From the IMG/VR virus record IMGVR_UViG_3300042876_000541, positions 1 to 35,926 of that record: a DNA stretch of 35,926 nt, one strand, 5' to 3'. This document shows positions 944 to 15,794 of the stretch, in pieces. The notes under the pieces are model-generated. The model did not search any database, was not told the DNA's origin, and saw nothing but the letters and a program-made list of their open reading frames with translations. Position numbers and translations under genes: made by a program. This DNA comes from a virus. The first letter of the stretch is position 1; each line of letters starts with the position of its first letter.

Positions 944-1182
944 CGGACTTGGTAAAAGTAGACCGCGCCAGATTGATGGAACTCAGGAGATTGCTCCCGC
1001 ATGGCTCCATTGGCGAGATAGCCGAAGAACTCGGTATCACCCGCAATGCTGTCACCGATGTATTGAAGGGCAAGTGGATCAATCCCGACGTGATCGACCG
1101 CGCCGTCCTCAAGATCGAGGCACAAAAGCAGCGTGTACAAGCCATCCACGACAAAATAGACCGGGCAGTCAAGCAATCATGA
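931..1182 (+). CDS. Ner-like small HTH regulator
   Basis: An 83-aa protein with a central helix-turn-helix (about residues 24-48, IGEIAEELGITRNAVTDVLK) and a basic helical tail. Its place between the divergent repressor gene and the transposase gene matches Ner in Mu, which shuts down early and repressor transcription. The family assignment rests on position and the HTH, not on a known signature. Its TGA overlaps the transposase ATG (ATGA at 1179-1182), so the two are probably translationally coupled. The start codon lies inside an end-type repeat. Confidence 0.7.
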   Translation: MYTKTDLVKVDRARLMELRRLLPHGSIGEIAEELGITRNAVTDVLKGKWINPDVIDRAVLKIEAQKQRVQAIHDKIDRAVKQS

Positions 1183-3404
1183 ACAGCATGAGGATCATAC
1201 AAGGCAATCTTTATATGACTTGGCTGGACCTGTCAGCTTATGGGATGACTTCCAAGTTCCTAAGTAAGGTCACAACCGAACACCGCCAAGGCGCGCGGCC
1301 ATCCTACGCCAACATCCCCGACCCGGACGACAAGCGCGTATGCCTGGTGCACTACGACAGCATCCCCGAGGCTACACGCTTGGAGAAGGGTATCCCGCCC
1401 AAAGCGGAGCTTATCGCTCAGGAACTCATCGCCTCACGGCTCGAAATTGACCCCGCAGCCATGGAATTCTACCTACAGAATCCCAACAGCTTCCCGCAGG
1501 CCCGATTCTTTGCCCGATGTGCTGCCTACCTCATGCTGGCGGCACCGGTCACGGTATCACAGGCCCGAAAGGCTGGATTCACCGGAGTGGATGGCTACTA
1601 TCAAGCAGTGATGGAGATCATGACCAGGGAACAGCTTCCAGTCTGGAAAGTAACCAACCTAGACAGGTTTAAGCGGCGATTAAGTCCCTTTAAAATGGCG
1701 GTAAAACACCCTGGTGACGAGGATATCTATAAGGAGGCGCTTGTTTCCCTGATATCCAAAAAGTACGGGCTCAAAAACGCCTCCAAAGTCCGCGGCACCA
1801 ACAACCAGGCGGAGGAAATCCAAGCCACGATCATCAAGATCTACGCAGATCCGCGCAAGTTTACCCTAGAGGAAACCGAAATGGCCTACCTCAAGATTGC
1901 GGCCAAGAAGCACCAAGAGTATGTGCAGTCCAACGGCACCAAAGGCTGGGATCACAAGTGCTTCCTGACGCAGCAGACGATTGCCAACTTCCTCTACGAT
2001 CCAGCCAATCAGCAGGTATGGTACGCTTCCAGGCATGGCGAATCCGAGTATCGCAAGGTATTCGAGCGCAACACGAAGCGCATCGCGGCATCCTATGCCA
2101 ATGCCAAGTGGGTCATGGATGGCACACCACTGCACCGCTACTTCCAGGATGCGGACAGCGCCTACAATAGAATCCATATTTACTTCATAGTCGACGAATA
2201 CAGCTGGTGTATCCTGGGCGTGGGTGTCTCGCTCAATGGCGAATCATCAGGACAGGTGCTCAATGCCCTCCGTGCCGCTTCGCAAAATGCCGGACTCTAC
2301 GCTGGAGACGACAAACTCTACGTACCCTTCGAGATCCAGTCGGATAACTCCAGTGCCAACCAAACGCAGTTTGTGCAGGAAGCCATCGAGACCATCGGAG
2401 CCGTCTACCGTCCCGCCCGCGTGGGCAATGCCAAGGCCAAGATGGTCGAGCCGCTCAATAAGCACTTCTTCGCACGCTGGATGCGCTTCCGCGATGGATT
2501 CACCGGCTCAATGGGCATGTCTACCAAGCTCGACAACAAGGTCAACCAAGATAACCTTACCGACCTCGTCCGCCGCCGTCAGCTTCCCGATCAGGAGCGT
2601 ATCCTGGTGGAGCTTCAAGAGGATGTCATGAACTGGAACAATGACAAGACATGGAAGAATGAGGGTGTCGATCCTGATAAGGCCCTTTCTCCCATCGAAA
2701 AGTACCGGCTATCTCTGGCCGATACAGCCGACAGGCAAAAGACCATCACCGACGCGGCATCTGTCTATGCCTACTACTGGCAGCCGTCCAAGGCCAAGCA
2801 GGTCAAGGACGAGAGCAGCAAGGCCCGCAAGATGAAGACGGTACACATTCCGCAAGAATACAAGTACACCAACAACGGCATCCGCATCGAGCGCATCAGC
2901 CCTGTCACGGGCAAGAAGGTCATGCTCGAATTTGATGTCACAGATCCCGAGTTCAATGCAGCAAATATAGGTTGCTCATTCACCCTGCGCGTGGAGCCAC
3001 TGAACTATGACCACGCCTTCCTCTTCCGTGACGGTCGCCCCGTCACGGACAGAGAGGGAAGGTGGATCAAAGCCATCAACAAAGAGACCTTCCACTCCGC
3101 ACTTGCCGACCATACCGAAGGCGAGATGAAGAAAATCATGGAGCACGAAGCCATCAAGAAGACACAGAAGGCCCTGGGCATCTCCCGCATGGACTTCTTT
3201 GACATGAAGGCCACCGCGGCAGGCATCGACACCGGAGCAATCAAGAACCCAAGGCTATTTGGACAAAAGGAAACTACCGACGCGCTCAAGATCGCACAGT
3301 CAGAGCTATTGATCAATGGATCAAAGTACCATATCGAGGAACCTACCGAAGAGGTGGTAGAAATAGAGAAAAAGGAATCAAAGATAAACCGGTGGGAAGT
3401 ATAA
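1179..3404 (+). CDS. Mu-type DDE transposase (MuA-like)
   Basis: A 741-aa transposase that would join phage ends to target DNA for integration and replication. The catalytic rve-type core shows D314 in WVMDGTPLHRYF, D389 in IQSDNSSANQTQF and E424 in NAKAKMVEPLNKHF; the last two are 35 positions apart. The N-terminal third is expected to bind the 22-bp end repeats. A basic C-terminal part follows, where MuA-type proteins contact their ATPase. I chose ATG 1179 because it overlaps the upstream stop as ATGA; an upstream start at 1074 would add 35 unlikely residues out of frame with the Ner-like gene. The next gene encodes the partner ATPase. Confidence 0.92.
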   Translation: MNSMRIIQGNLYMTWLDLSAYGMTSKFLSKVTTEHRQGARPSYANIPDPDDKRVCLVHYDSIPEATRLEKGIPPKAELIAQELIASRLEIDPAAMEFYLQNPNSFPQARFFARCAAYLMLAAPVTVSQARKAGFTGVDGYYQAVMEIMTREQLPVWKVTNLDRFKRRLSPFKMAVKHPGDEDIYKEALVSLISKKYGLKNASKVRGTNNQAEEIQATIIKIYADPRKFTLEETEMAYLKIAAKKHQEYVQSNGTKGWDHKCFLTQQTIANFLYDPANQQVWYASRHGESEYRKVFERNTKRIAASYANAKWVMDGTPLHRYFQDADSAYNRIHIYFIVDEYSWCILGVGVSLNGESSGQVLNALRAASQNAGLYAGDDKLYVPFEIQSDNSSANQTQFVQEAIETIGAVYRPARVGNAKAKMVEPLNKHFFARWMRFRDGFTGSMGMSTKLDNKVNQDNLTDLVRRRQLPDQERILVELQEDVMNWNNDKTWKNEGVDPDKALSPIEKYRLSLADTADRQKTITDAASVYAYYWQPSKAKQVKDESSKARKMKTVHIPQEYKYTNNGIRIERISPVTGKKVMLEFDVTDPEFNAANIGCSFTLRVEPLNYDHAFLFRDGRPVTDREGRWIKAINKETFHSALADHTEGEMKKIMEHEAIKKTQKALGISRMDFFDMKATAAGIDTGAIKNPRLFGQKETTDALKIAQSELLINGSKYHIEEPTEEVVEIEKKESKINRWEV

Positions 3405-3479: not shown

Positions 3480-4430
3480 ATGCAAAACGAACAGAAATCC
3501 AAGGTATCCGAGGCGGTCAACGCCTGGATCATCGAGGGAAACCCAGACCGCAGCCAAAATAAGCTGTGCGAACTCTCAGGCGTATCGCCTGTAATGGTCA
3601 AGGCTATTCGCCTTGGTGAGCTTACCTACAAGGCCAAAAAGGACTCCGATAAGGACATTGCCATCGCCGATCAGCACTACTACAAGCTGGCGGAGGCCGT
3701 CGGGCTGAAGTTTGAGCGGGAGATCCACTTCGCCAACAAGAACTACGAGACCGTTCACAACATCTGCCGCTATGCGCAGAGCAAGCACCGCCGCGGGATC
3801 ATCGACAGCGAGGACAGCGGAGCCGGCAAGACCTACAGCCTGGAAGCCTACGCCAGGCAAAACAAAAAGGCCATCTACATCAAGGCTACCAGCATGATGA
3901 AGGGCCGCGATCTCATCCAGAAGATCATGACCCAGCTCAATATCACCGCTGACGGCAAGCGTGCTGTCCGCCACCTGGAGCAAATCACGGAGAAGTTCAT
4001 CCAGCCCGGAGCGCTCATCATCATCGACGAACTCGAAGGTGCCAGCCCCGACATGTGGCGCGTCATCAAAGACATCGAGGATGCTACCTACCGCAAGATC
4101 GGCTTGATCATCTGTGGCAAGGGCTTGATCAATGAGATCAAGGTAGCCGCAGGCAAAGGCAAAAAACTCATGCCGCAGATCTGGCGCAGGTTCAAAAACA
4201 ATCAGATCCTGCTGAAGGCTCTCAACCGCAACAATGTGGCCGCGGCATGCAAGGAGCACGGCATTGAGGATGCCGGTGTGATCAAGCTCCTGTCCAGGCA
4301 TATTGAGGACTGGTCCCAACTCAATGAGTACATCAAGGACATCCACGACATCCTCATCAGCAAGGGGCAGGAAGTATCCGAGACAGTCATCAAGCAACTC
4401 TTTGAACTCGAAGAATATGCCAGCCATTAA
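3480..4430 (+). CDS. MuB/TnsC-like AAA+ transposition ATPase
   Basis: A 316-aa ATPase probably acting as target selector and transposase activator. Residues about 10-50 form an N-terminal HTH of the MuB kind (DRSQNKLCELSGVSPVMVKA). Walker A is DSGAGKTYS with K117, and Walker B is ALIIIDELE with D183 and E184. The C-terminal helical part (about 250-310) resembles the small lid domain. It follows the transposase after a 75-bp gap with the A/C-rich leader CCAAATCAAATC and no Shine-Dalgarno sequence. Its last codons overlap the next ORF. Confidence 0.88.
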   Translation: MQNEQKSKVSEAVNAWIIEGNPDRSQNKLCELSGVSPVMVKAIRLGELTYKAKKDSDKDIAIADQHYYKLAEAVGLKFEREIHFANKNYETVHNICRYAQSKHRRGIIDSEDSGAGKTYSLEAYARQNKKAIYIKATSMMKGRDLIQKIMTQLNITADGKRAVRHLEQITEKFIQPGALIIIDELEGASPDMWRVIKDIEDATYRKIGLIICGKGLINEIKVAAGKGKKLMPQIWRRFKNNQILLKALNRNNVAAACKEHGIEDAGVIKLLSRHIEDWSQLNEYIKDIHDILISKGQEVSETVIKQLFELEEYASH

Positions 4431-10516: not shown

Positions 10517-10794
10517 GACAGGTTTTTCGAAGGATAGAGATTAAAGCTCACGAAAGAGCGAACCTAGAAATCATCGAATACAACGATGGAACGGCATCTG
10601 TCTCGGTTGACTGTATGTGGACTGGTTGGGTAGATCAATACCCGAAGTTCTCAGAAGACATAATCAAAGAGCAAGAGTCGAAAATCACAAAGCGAATATC
10701 AGCCTACAAAAAATGGGAAGGAGATTATAACCCTACGAAATTCCTCAAACACCTTTTGGAAGAGATCAGAAAATCAAGACAGTTATCATTATGA
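10513..10794 (+). CDS. hypothetical phage protein
   Basis: A 93-aa soluble protein: a beta-rich first half (ANLEIIEYNDGTASVSVDCM) and a basic helical second half. No family recognised. ATGA overlaps on both sides indicate translational coupling. Confidence 0.55.
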   Translation: MRQVFRRIEIKAHERANLEIIEYNDGTASVSVDCMWTGWVDQYPKFSEDIIKEQESKITKRISAYKKWEGDYNPTKFLKHLLEEIRKSRQLSL

Positions 10795-11048
10795 AAATCA
10801 CTTACGAAATAGACACGCAAGATCCATCCCAGGCGATGGAGCGGCGGCAGCTCGAGAAGGCCAACGACATGGCCATGGTACTCTGGGAGATGACCTTCAA
10901 TGTGCGAAAGCATGTCAACAACCGGGTGGAAAACGCAGTAGCCGACGGCTACAGGGTCAGCGCAGAGGATGCGATCAGCTGGGTATTCCAAGAATACAAC
11001 AGATTGATGGAAGAGCACGGGATACGGGTAGAGGAGCTTAACAATTAA
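10791..11048 (+). CDS. hypothetical phage protein
   Basis: An 85-aa acidic, helical protein (MAMVLWEMTFNVRKHVNNRV). It resembles in size and character the small proteins common in Bacteroidota phage early regions, but no domain is recognised. Confidence 0.55.
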   Translation: MKITYEIDTQDPSQAMERRQLEKANDMAMVLWEMTFNVRKHVNNRVENAVADGYRVSAEDAISWVFQEYNRLMEEHGIRVEELNN

Positions 11049-11350: not shown

Positions 11351-11623
11351 ATGAGACAAACCTGGAAAGAAATCACTATCAAGTTCATCATCTTCATAGC
11401 GGCAGCACTGCTGCTGCTATGGGTGAGTGGATGTAAACCCCGTGAACAGCGCGTCCGGGATAAGTACGTGCTGAAGGTCTACGAGCAATCAGGATCACTT
11501 GATGAGTGGTCTATCATCATCGGCATTGACTCAGTCTACATGCACAGCAGCACCACCGCAGACATCTGGATCGATGGTCGCAAGAGCCGAATCATCGGGG
11601 ACAAGTTGCTGGTGGGGAGGTAA
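11351..11623 (+). CDS. small lipoprotein; stop codon lies in a cassette boundary
   Basis: A 90-aa protein with a basic start, a hydrophobic segment (FIIFIAAALLLLWVSGC) and lipobox Cys28, so probably a lipoprotein or membrane-anchored. The mature part is beta-rich and unrecognised. The TAA stop is part of GGTAACG, the outer boundary of the first attC-like site. The original stop codon therefore appears to have served as the insertion point of the cassette array. Confidence 0.65.
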   Translation: MRQTWKEITIKFIIFIAAALLLLWVSGCKPREQRVRDKYVLKVYEQSGSLDEWSIIIGIDSVYMHSSTTADIWIDGRKSRIIGDKLLVGR

Positions 11624-11750
11624 CGTATCGGGGCTTGTAGCAGTAGGGGATTTATAGCACTACTGTTGAATAAAGCACCAAAGCTGATTAGAAGTACACA
11701 GCTCAATTAAAGCACTTCTGCCCCTATTGCTACAAACCCTTGTTAGCAGA
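11619..11750 (+). other. attC-like recombination site 1
   Basis: An imperfect long inverted repeat. Left arm GGTAACGTATCGGGGCTTGT continues AGCAGTAGGGG. Right arm CCCCTATTGCTACAAACCC continues TTGTTAGCAG. The arms pair almost fully, with unpaired bases as in integron attC hairpins. The intervening about 70 bp contain AGAAGTAC and GCACTTCT, which may form an inner stem. The terminal core TAAC/GTTA resembles but does not fit the integron GTTRRRY consensus. Confidence 0.7.
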
Positions 11751-11795
11751 AGTGGCGGTCAATTTACAAGGGTATAATTTTTAAATTCAAAAAAT

Positions 11796-12026
11796 ATGTG
11801 GTCAGAAAAAGACAAAAAACAAAGAGAAATTGATAGTGCAAAAGCTGAAATAACACAAGCGGAAGCATTAAAAGTATTGTTGTCAAATAATACATTGGCA
11901 GCCGAAATTCATATTGCTGGTATGGTAATGGGAACTTGTGATAATAAGTGGCTTTTACCTGTTGTCGAAAAACAGATAAAAGAACTGAATAAATTTTTAA
12001 ATGGTCAGCCGAACTTATGGGAGTAG
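11796..12026 (+). CDS. cassette 1 protein, hypothetical
   Basis: A 76-aa helical protein (KDKKQREIDSAKAEITQAEA, then NKWLLPVVEKQIKELNKFL). No family recognised. Codon use is AT-rich, unlike the surrounding phage genes. It stands alone between attC-like sites 1 and 2, the usual layout of a one-gene cassette. The cassette would run from about 11743 to 12160. Confidence 0.6.
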   Translation: MWSEKDKKQREIDSAKAEITQAEALKVLLSNNTLAAEIHIAGMVMGTCDNKWLLPVVEKQIKELNKFLNGQPNLWE

Positions 12027-12032
12027 CCATTT

Positions 12033-12167
12033 CTGCTAACGTTTTCGGGCTTTGCGTTCGGCAGGGCTTAGAAGTACAAAAGATTAATTAACAACTAAAG
12101 TTTAATAGAATGAAAAAAGCTGAATTAACAACTCAAACCCCTGCTGACGCAAAACCCGTGTTAGCAG
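12033..12167 (+). other. attC-like recombination site 2
   Basis: Left arm CTGCTAACGTTTTCGGGCTT, then TGCGTTCGGCAGG. Right arm CCTGCTGACGCAAAACCCG, then TGTTAGCAG. The complement of the right arm aligns with the left arm with a small bulge, giving a stem of over 20 bp around an AT-rich 70-bp centre. The right arm also encodes the start of the cassette 2 protein. Confidence 0.75.
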
Positions 12168-12307
12168 AAGTTCCATGCAAGAAGCATAAACCGAAGCAAT
12201 TAGATTATTTAGCTTGGCATGATTGGGCAGAGAAGATGCAAAGACAAGGCAAAGAACAAACACAGTGCAAGAAGTGTGGTAGATGGTATTTTAAATCGGA
12301 GATGTGA
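12110..12307 (+). CDS. cassette 2 protein, small zinc-ribbon protein
   Basis: A 65-aa protein with two metal-ligand pairs, C23-x2-H26 and C53-x2-C56, and the phrase QTQCKKCGRWYF. This is typical of small phage and plasmid zinc-ribbon proteins of unknown role (the LxWxxWAxxM...QxxCxxCxxW type). The ATG lies inside attC-like site 2. Residues about 7-21 (TTQTPADAKPVLAEV) are encoded by its right arm, so the recombination site contributes the N-terminus. AT-rich composition supports foreign origin. Confidence 0.65.
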   Translation: MKKAELTTQTPADAKPVLAEVPCKKHKPKQLDYLAWHDWAEKMQRQGKEQTQCKKCGRWYFKSEM

Positions 12308-12314
12308 GGCATTT

Positions 12315-12450
12315 CTGCTAACGTCCTAGTGCTTTGCGTTCGGGCGGGATTTTAACAACAAAATTTCAATAGAATGAATACAGATGATTTAACCACAAAT
12401 GCTGATGCAGGGCAAGTCGCCCCGCCTGACGCAAAACACTTGTTACCTGC
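12315..12450 (+). other. attC-like recombination site 3
   Basis: Left arm CTGCTAACGTCCTAGTGCTT, then TGCGTTCGGGCGGG. Right arm CCCGCCTGACGCAAAACACT, then TGTTACCTGC. Same architecture and near-identical arm middle (TTTGCGT/ACGCAAA) as site 2, with a different outer end (TTACCTGCC instead of TTAGCAG). Confidence 0.75.
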
Positions 12451-12580
12451 CGTGCCTTCTCACGAGGTTGTCATGGCAGAAATTTACAAGTGGGCTGATG
12501 AAATAAGAATGCCGTCTGGTTATGATGGTGATTTGGAAAAACTTTACAAACGATTGTCTGTCTTATGGCATGGCAGGTAA
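12374..12580 (+). CDS. cassette 3 protein, hypothetical
   Basis: A 68-aa acidic protein. The ATG lies inside attC-like site 3, and residues up to about 27 (VAPPDAKHLLPAVPS) are encoded by the right arm. The PDAKHLLPAV segment parallels PADAKPVLAEV in cassette 2 because both come from the same arm sequence. The rest (VVMAEIYKWADEIRM, LEKLYKRLSVLWHGR) is helical and unrecognised. The TAA stop is again inside a GGTAAC core. Confidence 0.6.
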   Translation: MNTDDLTTNADAGQVAPPDAKHLLPAVPSHEVVMAEIYKWADEIRMPSGYDGDLEKLYKRLSVLWHGR

Positions 12581-12581
12581 C
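12572..12581 (+). other. 3' half-site of the cassette array
   Basis: GGCAGGTAAC is the inverted complement of TTACCTGCC at the right arm of site 3 and matches the GGTAAC that opens site 1. No second arm follows. This is the right junction with phage DNA. Confidence 0.6.
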
Positions 12582-13115: not shown

Positions 13116-13473
13116 ATGAAAAAGGGAATCACATTGATCATCATGCTGCTGCTGGCTGTGGGAGTGCAGGCGCAGACGGCGATGAAGTGGGCGGGCAAGC
13201 CCTCAGAGCTGCCGATCATCCTATCCGACGGCACGGAGATCCGCGTAGGTACGCAGATCGAGATGCACCAGGGCAGCAACTTTGACGGCACCTACAAGTA
13301 TGCTTACACCTCCAGCGGCGGACTTCGCGACGCTGACCGTGACAGAGATCCGCTACAGCAAGGCCGCCGATCAGCTCTTTGCGCTCGTGGAGTTCCAAGG
13401 GCGATTGTACCTGGTCGATATCGAGAAGGGATTGAGAAGTGGGGAGATAAAGGAAGTACGAAGGACGAGGTGA
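13116..13473 (+). pseudogene. secreted protein, frameshifted
   Basis: The frame starts with a clear Sec signal peptide (MKKGITLIIMLLLAVGVQAQ). It reads KPSELPIILSDGTEIRVGTQ and on to YAYTSSG, then turns into Arg-rich nonsense. The +1 frame continues sensibly with DFATLTVTEIRYSKAADQLF and ends at 13473 just before a repeat and terminator. Removing one G at 13320-13321 joins them into a 118-aa exported protein. It is either a genuine 1-bp insertion or a sequencing error. No family recognised. It is the last gene of the rightward early/middle operon. Confidence 0.65.
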
Positions 13474-13503
13474 GAGACAAGAAGCAAGAGGCAAGAGACA
13501 AGA
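13469..13503 (+). repeat. AGACAAGAAGCAAGAG-type repeat
   Basis: GAGAGACAAGAAGCAAGAG and GCAAGAGACAAGAAAG lie between the secreted protein and its terminator. It belongs with the other purine-rich blocks. Confidence 0.5.
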
Positions 13504-13505
13504 AA

Positions 13506-13531
13506 GCCCCGAGGGATCGGGGCTTTTTTTT
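13506..13531 (+). terminator. terminator closing the rightward early operon
   Basis: GCCCCG (506-511 of this kilobase) pairs with CGGGGC and is followed by eight T residues. Convergent genes meet here: the leftward late module ends at 13530, overlapping the T run. Confidence 0.8.
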
Positions 13532-14030
13532 ATGGCTCAGGGTCTGGTGGTGGCGGTGGTGCTGCCCAAGGGAGCCGGGAGCGGCTGCGGCGGTACTCGT
13601 AGCGGATGCGGATGGTGGATACGATCAGGTTGCGCGCAAATAGGGGCTTTTCGTAGCCTACGATTTGGATACCCTCGTAGTGGTGCAGCAGTGCATCGAT
13701 ATGGTCGGCATAGCCAAGCGCATCCTTGTAGGCATTCAGATCTGCGCTGTCGTCCCTTCCCTGGTAGAAGTTGTCGACCACGACCTTGATCCCAATTTCG
13801 ATGGTGCCGGTCTGCTGTCCATCCCTGGCATCGAGCGGCAGATCCGCAAAGTCCACCGCCACATAGGGCCGCGGTGGCTGGGGATAGTTGGCTTCGTCCC
13901 ATTGGGTCGGGTTGTTTTCCCATGGAATGACCGCAGCGGGTGCGGTGATCTCCTTTTCGGTGTAGTAGTCTGCCGAATCCTCGCCCATCAGGCGGTCTTG
14001 GATCAACTCTAAAATACTTGCGTAGCTCAT
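13530..14030 (-). CDS. Mu gp37-like / tail terminator-type protein
   Basis: A 166-aa protein from the last gene of the leftward late module. The central beta region (TGTIEIGIKVVVDNFYQGRD) and helices around a metered N-terminus (YASILELIQDRLMGE) fit the Mu gp37 (DUF1834) or tail-terminator type that caps the tail tube at the head end. The C-terminus is Arg- then Pro-rich (PWAAPPPPPDPEP). Position after a gpG-like gene supports a head-tail joining role. Assignment is moderate. Confidence 0.5.
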   Translation of the reverse strand: MSYASILELIQDRLMGEDSADYYTEKEITAPAAVIPWENNPTQWDEANYPQPPRPYVAVDFADLPLDARDGQQTGTIEIGIKVVVDNFYQGRDDSADLNAYKDALGYADHIDALLHHYEGIQIVGYEKPLFARNLIVSTIRIRYEYRRSRSRLPWAAPPPPPDPEP

Positions 14031-14570: not shown

Positions 14571-15794
14571 TTATCGAATTAAGTTTCTCTCGATCGAAAC
14601 CTGCAAGTAGTCTATGTGTACAATGTCAGCCGCGGCGTCTGTCGTAGATTCCGTAGCGATCACCCCCGCACCTGTCTCGCGATTGACAGCGGTTGGGATG
14701 TTGGTCGTGATTGTTTCCTGCCAAAGTTGCGTACCAGCCTCGCTAAATATCGTGAATACCGCCTGTGTGGGCGATACTACCACGACGCTGGCGGTGTACC
14801 AAGTGTTCAGTACAGTTTGAAAGGTGCTGGCAGCTATTGTCTGCACGTTGTTGTTGCGCGTTCTGGCCTCGATGACACCTGTAGCAGGGATGTACTGAAG
14901 GTAGACACCGTCAACTGGGTCGGTTGCTGAAGTCGAGTCAAAGTAACCAATCCTGAACTGGATCGTCGTCCGTGCCGAGGGTCTTCGAAAGCAGCATATC
15001 GTGCGTTCACCACCAGCAAGCCGCAGCGAGTTGGCCTCGGTCATGATCCTGTATCCGCCGCCCGCCGTCGTACCGTCGCGCAAAGCCACCACTCCGGGGT
15101 GGTTCGGTTCACCAGCTATTGCGGCAATCGCTCCGCCCGATATCGTCGTGCCGCCGAGACCGTTTCCAAAGGGTGTGGCGTTGTTCAAAAAATCTGATTC
15201 AGCGATCACCGTTCGGAATCGTGTTGGCTCCCAAGCGGGGCCTTCAGGTCCCGGAGGGCCAGTTGGTCCCGTCGCTCCTGGTGTTCCGGGTTCGCCTTGC
15301 GGTCCCGGAGGGCCAGTTGGTCCCGTCGCTCCTGGTGTACCTGGTTCACCTTGTGGTCCGGGAGGTCCAGTTGGTCCCGTCGCTCCTGGTGTACCTGGTT
15401 CACCTTGTGGTCCGGGAGGTCCAGTTGGTCCCGTCGCTCCCGGTGTGCCGGGTTCGCCTTGCGGTCCCGGAGGGCCAGTTGGTCCCGTTGCTCCCGGTGT
15501 GCCGGGTTCGCCTTGCGGTCCCGGAGGGCCAGTTGGTCCCGTTGCCCCTGGTGTTCCGGGTTCGCCTTGCGGTCCCGGAGGGCCAGTTGGTCCCGTTGCT
15601 CCCGGTGTTCCGGGTTCGCCTTGCGGCCCTGGCACGGGATAGTAGGTCAATACTTCCCGATTACCCACCACCACTGGCGGGGTGTTGGAAAACTGCTTCA
15701 TCTCCTCAGCCAGCTCCAGCTGCCGATCTGGTGTCAGCTGATAGGTTTCGACTGGCTTGGGAGTAGGGTCGATATGGGGAATGACTTGAGACAT
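14571..15794 (-). CDS. collagen-like virion protein
   Basis: A 407-aa protein in three parts. Residues 1-54 are a head with [17 protein letters not shown]. Residues 55-180 are seven tandem copies of [18 protein letters not shown], a perfect Gly-X-Y collagen repeat. Residues about 190-407 are a beta-rich domain ([40 protein letters not shown]) resembling lectin-like jelly rolls. Trimeric collagen stalks are known in phage fibres and head decorations. Here the gene lies between portal and morphogenesis genes rather than among the tail fibres, so a head or neck fibre is possible. Export is unlikely since there is no signal peptide. Confidence 0.75.
15247..15632 (-). repeat. seven 54-bp tandem repeats coding for Gly-X-Y
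   Basis: Each 54-bp unit encodes the same 18 residues. The copies differ only at silent positions (for example CCTGGT versus CCCGGT and TTCGCC versus TTCACC on plus). Copy-number change by recombination is likely. Confidence 0.85.

Follow-up and report, generated by a model that had tools for sequence, protein, structure and literature searches.

How does a transposable phage come to carry a row of small genes that are separated by long DNA hairpins, and which enzyme could have placed them there? This question is raised by a 35.9-kb IMG/VR virus record (IMGVR_UViG_3300042876_000541), whose complete length of 35,926 nucleotides was analysed and is referred to here as the window. The record represents a transposable phage with portal, terminase and capsid genes (PHROG matches) and encodes on its plus strand a MuA-like transposase (1074..3404; phrog_310, E 2.2e-36) and a MuB-like AAA transposition protein (3480..4430; phrog_296, E 7.6e-22; AAA_22). 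On the minus strand, a collagen-like repeat protein (PF01391) with an SO2946-like C-terminal domain and ~54-bp tandem repeats was observed at 14571-15794. The region 11624-12580 is very probably an integrase-less, CALIN-like array of three cassettes, which belongs to an integron-like system of the Bacteroidota and would be served by a host recombinase in trans.

The array follows a lipoprotein-like phage gene (11351..11623, plus strand), whose stop codon TAA (11621-11623) is also the TAA of the first core. Three attC-like sites with the form TAACG...GTTA are located on the plus strand: S1 (11621..11745, an inverted repeat of 125 bp from core to core; 95.4 bits and E 2.6e-21 with the covariance model R1, see below), S2 (12037..12163, 127 bp, 133.7 bits) and S3 (12319..12445, 127 bp, 115.7 bits), their R1 scores being partly by construction as all three are members of the training set of the model. 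A first-pass annotation of this DNA had described imperfect inverted repeats of 132-136 bp between three AT-rich one-gene units. The repeats and the units stand, the length does not (with the outer arms it is about 141-143 bp), and the insert has a GC content of 39% compared with 52% for the record. The motif TTTGCGT/ACGCAAA reported for sites 2 and 3 was found again, and the general layout in the window is TAACG, about 4 nt, CGGGC, a TTTGCGT-like arm, an inner stem, a loop, the complementary arms and TGTTA. DNA folding gave z-scores of -2.1 for S1, -4.2 for S2 and -1.9 for S3, with none of 200 shuffles as stable as S2; by itself, folding is only moderate evidence for S1 and S3, and the decisive case against chance is comparative.

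Each cassette comprises a site and the unit that follows it, with a crossover at TAA|C. Cassette 1 (11624..12039, plus strand, 416 bp), whose border was placed by a rule derived from duplicated host cassettes, consists of S1 and unit 1 with the complementary unit ends GTTAGCAGAAGTGGC / GCCATTTCTGCTAAC. Cassette 2 (12040..12321, plus strand, 282 bp) contains S2 and unit 2 with the ends GTTAGCAGAAGTTCC / GGCATTTCTGCTAAC, and cassette 3 (12322..12580, plus strand, 259 bp) contains S3 and unit 3, whose ends TGTTACCTGCCGTGCC / GGCATGGCAGGTAACA match their own unit and not the neighbours. The complementary ends thus read TTAGCAGAAG...CTTCTGCTAA in units 1 and 2 and TTACCTGCC...GGCAGGTAA in unit 3. 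The left outer arm of each site matches the start of the preceding unit, and the outer arms of a single site need not match one another. The first-pass annotation had noted that the outer ends differ; the observation holds, and as read from these matches it is no deviation but the trace expected from site-specific insertion of cassettes.

The first gene (11796..12026, plus strand, 76 aa) starts outside its site and belongs to no known family. Gene 2 (12110..12307, plus strand) encodes a small, cysteine-containing protein of 65 aa, residues 1-21 of which (MKKAELTTQTPADAKPVLAEV) stem from the site and the outer arm. Gene 3 (12374..12580, plus strand, 68 aa) has a leader from the site (MNTDDLTTNADAGQVAPPDAKHLLPAV) and uses the TAA of the terminal TAAC as stop codon. 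This terminal core (12578..12581, plus strand) forms the right end of the insert, and the empty site would have read GGGGAGGTAA|CATATGG. The three cassette proteins had no match in PHROG and a single weak one, for one protein and below the cut-off, in Pfam; the window had no match in Rfam, and a DNA search of GenBank phages with it gave none either. In line with the first-pass annotation, a search for tyrosine recombinases in the window gave no match; the record may be a fragment. With three sites and no recombinase match, the locus corresponds to the definition of a CALIN (at least two attC sites, no integrase nearby).

A scan with the left-arm pattern gave matches in 69 viral stretches and, among bacterial genomes, in at least 119, almost all of these from Bacteroidota, and the right arm was also present in most matches with enough sequence. 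Two matches outside this phylum that were inspected, in Eggerthella and Psychrobacter, have no right arm and probably arose by chance. The covariance model R1 detected 193 sites in viral loci at E<=1e-4. Among 139 distinct sites 96.2% of the pair cells were paired, the covariation score was 0.573 (0.132 in shuffles) and 627 cells were changed on both sides (175 in shuffles); the alignment was fitted to the R1 structure, so that the pair counts lean towards it, and sliding and shuffling controls were far lower. By their covariation and a border at AAC/GTT (see below), the sites are of the attC type: they fold, their R and L boxes pair and the crossover lies at GTT. The core reads GTTRNNNRY: GTT was required by the refinement, R follows in 338 of 338 sites and the rest is variable. 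A departure from the strict GTTRRRY had already been stated in the first-pass annotation. The specificity of R1 is judged from the bias of the pattern scan towards Bacteroidota and from XerC/D control loci, and the viral origin of the comparison contigs is that given by IMG/VR.

The behaviour of the cassettes becomes apparent in host chromosomes. Bacteroidota bacterium SSA2 (G005, the genome of locus L082) carries on its complete chromosome 342 plus-strand sites (E<=0.001) between 3.476 and 3.982 Mb, that is about 340 sites across 507 kb with a tyrosine recombinase at the end; the five minus-strand calls among 347 are weak second matches on sites already called on the plus strand. An R1 site at E<=1e-6 is present in 142 of 197 sampled genomes from the same class, probably Bacteroidia. 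The ends of the units are complementary (at least 6 of 8 positions) in 92% of 305 units of the G005 array, against 6-7% when both arms of a single site, neighbouring units or random pairs are compared, and in 66% of 71 viral units, compared with 5-6% in controls. Dispersed copies of cassettes are common in the G005 array, one cassette of 540 bp being present in 53 copies. In near-identical unit pairs the left-hand site was kept and the right-hand site was not in 1035 cases, the reverse in none, and the conserved block ends at AAC. Since the left site is conserved with the duplicated unit and the border lies at AAC, the cassette consists of site plus unit and the crossover is TAA|C, which in gene orientation reads G|TT as in integrons. 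Taken with the phage comparisons below, the sequences show that recombination at the TAAC/GTTA core inserts cassettes and moves each as a whole. Proteins encoded in the 507-kb array (L206-L232, G005:C1:3.47-4.00 Mb) gave matches to HepT-like RNases, a ParE toxin, an Mrr-type restriction endonuclease and a MerC protein, and also to several of the candidate defence models of PADLOC. At another locus (L233:16795-18552, genome G041) an AIPR-family protein of the abortive phage infection type (PF10592, E 4.8e-36) is encoded by the cassette closest to the recombinase.

Integron arrays have an entry site beside the integrase gene, and a counterpart was sought as the complement of the start of the recombinase-proximal unit. 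Of 21 loci, 19 had a full 6-nt flank match before AAC. In 16 loci the AAC is followed by N6-ATATACG at the first junction of the array, a motif unlike the left arm of the attC-like sites; the sites were chosen by the flank match and the motif AAC-N6-ATATACG is the independent part. Its distance from the recombinase gene is ~20-310 bp in 15 loci and ~1.4 kb in the last, L261. In the remaining three matched loci AAC precedes other sequence, and in two of them the start resembles a further site. Host arrays accordingly possess an attI-like site beside the recombinase gene; none was seen in the phage window.

The recombinases beside the arrays are members of one tyrosine recombinase family. R1 sites are present in 15 of 20 fetched family loci and in none of 20 XerC/D loci from the same genome pool, and in 21 of 30 family loci if those fetched first are included; because the genomes were chosen for having sites, this link is a local association. 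Six of the nine family loci without a site lie within ~1.4 kb of a contig end, the other three do not. Around the family recombinases of L237, L243 and L259 the fetched 14-20 kb contain no R1 site; the targets of these enzymes may be diverged sites or of another kind.

All residues of the Arg-His-Arg-Tyr set are kept in the catalytic part. The closest NCBIfam model is that of XerA (NF040815, 230 bits), followed by IntI (215 bits, below the cut-off of 265). TIGR02249 positions about 180-238, the IntI-specific additional domain (patch III), are unmatched, and the insert of the true IntI L194 is absent from all 13 other aligned recombinases. The predicted structure (mean pLDDT 84, pTM 0.57) resembles XerA (5hxy) and IntI4 (2a3v) most. 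In a tree without XerA rows the recombinases group with IntI, apart from the XerC/D proteins of Bacteroidota (100/100), and the IntI clade is nested among them on a long branch with moderate support, 93/94 at best. The N-terminal part is predicted to form a small alpha/beta domain and contains a KWSxTxKxW-like motif. Pfam assigns HARP (PF07443) to one of two longer members (L241, 33 bits, cut-off 25) and scores the other just below (L242, 24.7 bits); the HARP-like assignment of other members is based on the aligned motif and the predicted alpha/beta domain. In the annealing helicase SMARCAL1, from which HARP domains are known (PMC4035279), the domain is fused to a helicase and not, as here, to a tyrosine recombinase. 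We infer that the HARP-like domain helps to fold or bind the hairpin. The array-side recombinase is probably the enzyme of the cassette system, an activity that is predicted from its sequence and location. A host recombinase co-occurring with the repeats, which the first-pass annotation had proposed to look for, thus lies beside the arrays, and the Bacteroidota cassette system of its own kind that it had suggested is borne out by huge host arrays next to a tyrosine recombinase other than IntI.

Alternatively, the window could hold an ordinary CALIN, whose canonical attC sites were moved into the phage by a classical IntI, the adjacent recombinase of the Bacteroidota being incidental. The sites do have attC polarity, a GTT core and the form of a hairpin. 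Moreover, phages with CALINs are known: the Polaribacter phage P12002L, a phage of Bacteroidota, likewise carries cassettes without an integrase, and one of its sites, P12002L_attC2, which may be among the R1 matches in this phage, was recombined by IntI1 (Qi et al. 2023, PMC9892861). The R1 matches in P12002L are weak (E 4e-5 to 2e-3), and its unit ends are complementary, too. However, an IntI above the cut-off is encoded in just one of 47 site-bearing genomes, other tyrosine recombinases being present in every genome. In this one genome, the Chlorobiaceae MAG G027, the true IntI (L194, 474 bits) is located on C11, whereas the R1 sites lie on C8 beside a HARP-type recombinase (L256). Together with the core GTTRNNNRY in place of GTTRRRY, this makes a mere CALIN of the classical kind improbable.

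Mobility is also visible among the phages themselves. L038 and L054 are 99.2-99.9% identical apart from one cassette, which is inserted exactly at TAAC, and several cassettes with sites 94-100% identical between phages have unrelated upstream DNA. The first-pass annotation's assumption that a transposable phage carries the cassettes agrees with the phrog_310 and phrog_296 genes and with a relative of the window. This relative, L246, was found via its portal protein (63% identical) and has one different cassette at the syntenic locus, flanked by homologues of the window genes 10791-11048 and 13116-13643; it does not carry the same genes without the repeats. The near-identical phage L015 contains the same three cassettes as the window, and a search with the neighbouring 97-aa protein yielded no relative other than this near-identical contig (L015/L074). 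Large viral contigs of 132-318 kb also have homologues of the array recombinase beside sites (L023:1989-2588, L058:7655-8456 and L064:4063-4741), split into two reading frames in L058 and shortened in L023; these could be platforms borne by phages or cassette genes in decay.

Viral and host cassettes differ in the direction of their genes. In the host array the longest gene runs opposite to the site strand in 190 of 206 units, corresponding to the order gene then attC, whereas in viral loci it lies on the strand of the site in 68 of 71 units, so that the polarity is reversed. Of 130 unique viral sites, 82 (63%) contain an ATG whose frame continues across the right arm into the gene; in the host array this applies to 52 of 334 sites (16%). 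Mostly one frame is used (...DAKPVL...). Genes 2 and 3 of the window belong here, with start codons in the loops of S2 and S3, and gene 1 does not; the leader of gene 2 occurs again in other phages. A further viral cassette (L068:3270-3974) encodes a DNA N6/N4 methylase with an N-terminus from the recombination site, comparable to the methylase cassettes of P12002L. Site and gene travel together as a single cassette, so that every move preserves the reading frame. The upstream phage gene ends with the TAA of the core and thus remains intact after insertion at TAA|C.

The in-site start codons, concentrated in viral sites and mostly in one frame, would also suit hairpins that act as translational leaders or regulatory RNA elements of the phage in front of small genes, without any recombination. 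This reading leaves the complementary unit ends unexplained and is contradicted by the single-cassette insertion between L038 and L054 as well as by the mobility of site plus unit in the host array, where the genes point the other way; a purely regulatory hairpin is very improbable and was rejected. IS200/IS605-type elements possess subterminal hairpins and insert beside a short TTA-containing core, features which are shared by the units, but non-autonomous IS200/IS605-type (HUH) elements or REP/RAYT repeats are the least probable of all and were rejected, as every unit has a single hairpin instead of one at each end, the unit ends complement each other, the arrays run head-to-tail on one strand, the array-side enzyme is a tyrosine recombinase and the repeats flank variable genes, which also speaks against the ordinary genome-wide elements considered in the first-pass annotation.

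For the integron-like array, the following course is proposed. A tyrosine recombinase encoded by the host would work in trans, with the hairpin folded from a single strand as its substrate, the choice of strand being part of this proposal. In bacteria, cassettes would be inserted at the attI-like site adjoining the recombinase gene, in phages at TAAC sites or at other attC sites, and a phage without a recombinase of its own would borrow that of the host. In the phage the site also provides the start codon and the N-terminal leader of the cassette gene.

Sedentary chromosomal integrons such as the Vibrio superintegron resemble this system in many respects. Both have single-gene cassettes, a folding attC-like site with a GTT crossover, long head-to-tail arrays with the polarity gene then attC (here in the hosts), unit starts complementary to their own left site arm and a simple attI-like site beside the recombinase. 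In contrast to integrons, the present recombinase lacks the IntI-specific insert and carries an N-terminal HARP-like domain, the core is GTTRNNNRY, the attI motif is AAC-N6-ATATACG, and the phage cassettes are reversed in gene polarity. As it is integron-like in all tested features except the IntI insert and GTTRRRY, the system is classified as integron-like and not as an IntI integron. Archaeal XerA is the best match of the catalytic part in NCBIfam and, in sequence and structure, in the PDB. XerA resolves chromosome dimers at dif; the array-side family differs from it by the N-terminal HARP-like domain and the location beside cassette arrays.

Integrons were reported to be nearly absent from Bacteroidetes, with only In0 elements and one Salinibacter integron (IntegronFinder 2.0, PMC9024848). 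The P12002L paper (PMC9892861) describes, in its accessible part, neither a site family of the Bacteroidota nor arrays in hosts, a cognate recombinase or start codons supplied by the sites, and no earlier description of the system was found in the open-access literature, closed-access work and preprints lying outside this search. Three findings go beyond the first-pass annotation: a recombinase that carries a HARP-like domain, an attI-like site, and phage cassettes whose gene polarity is reversed, with start codons inside the hairpins. It appears moderately probable that the arrays represent an unrecognised integron lineage, class- to phylum-wide in the Bacteroidota, with an integrase that carries an N-terminal HARP-like domain and is sister or ancestral to IntI, and with a phage pool of reversed cassettes in which the site serves as translation start.

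With sites in 142 of 197 sampled genomes of one class and about 340 of them in a single array, this would be a large overlooked gene-exchange system, which carries toxin-like, restriction-type and candidate defence genes. The origin of IntI becomes testable, and a new recombinase, probably acting on folded DNA, is on offer. Finally, the swapping of single genes between phages via site-specific recombination is directly visible here.
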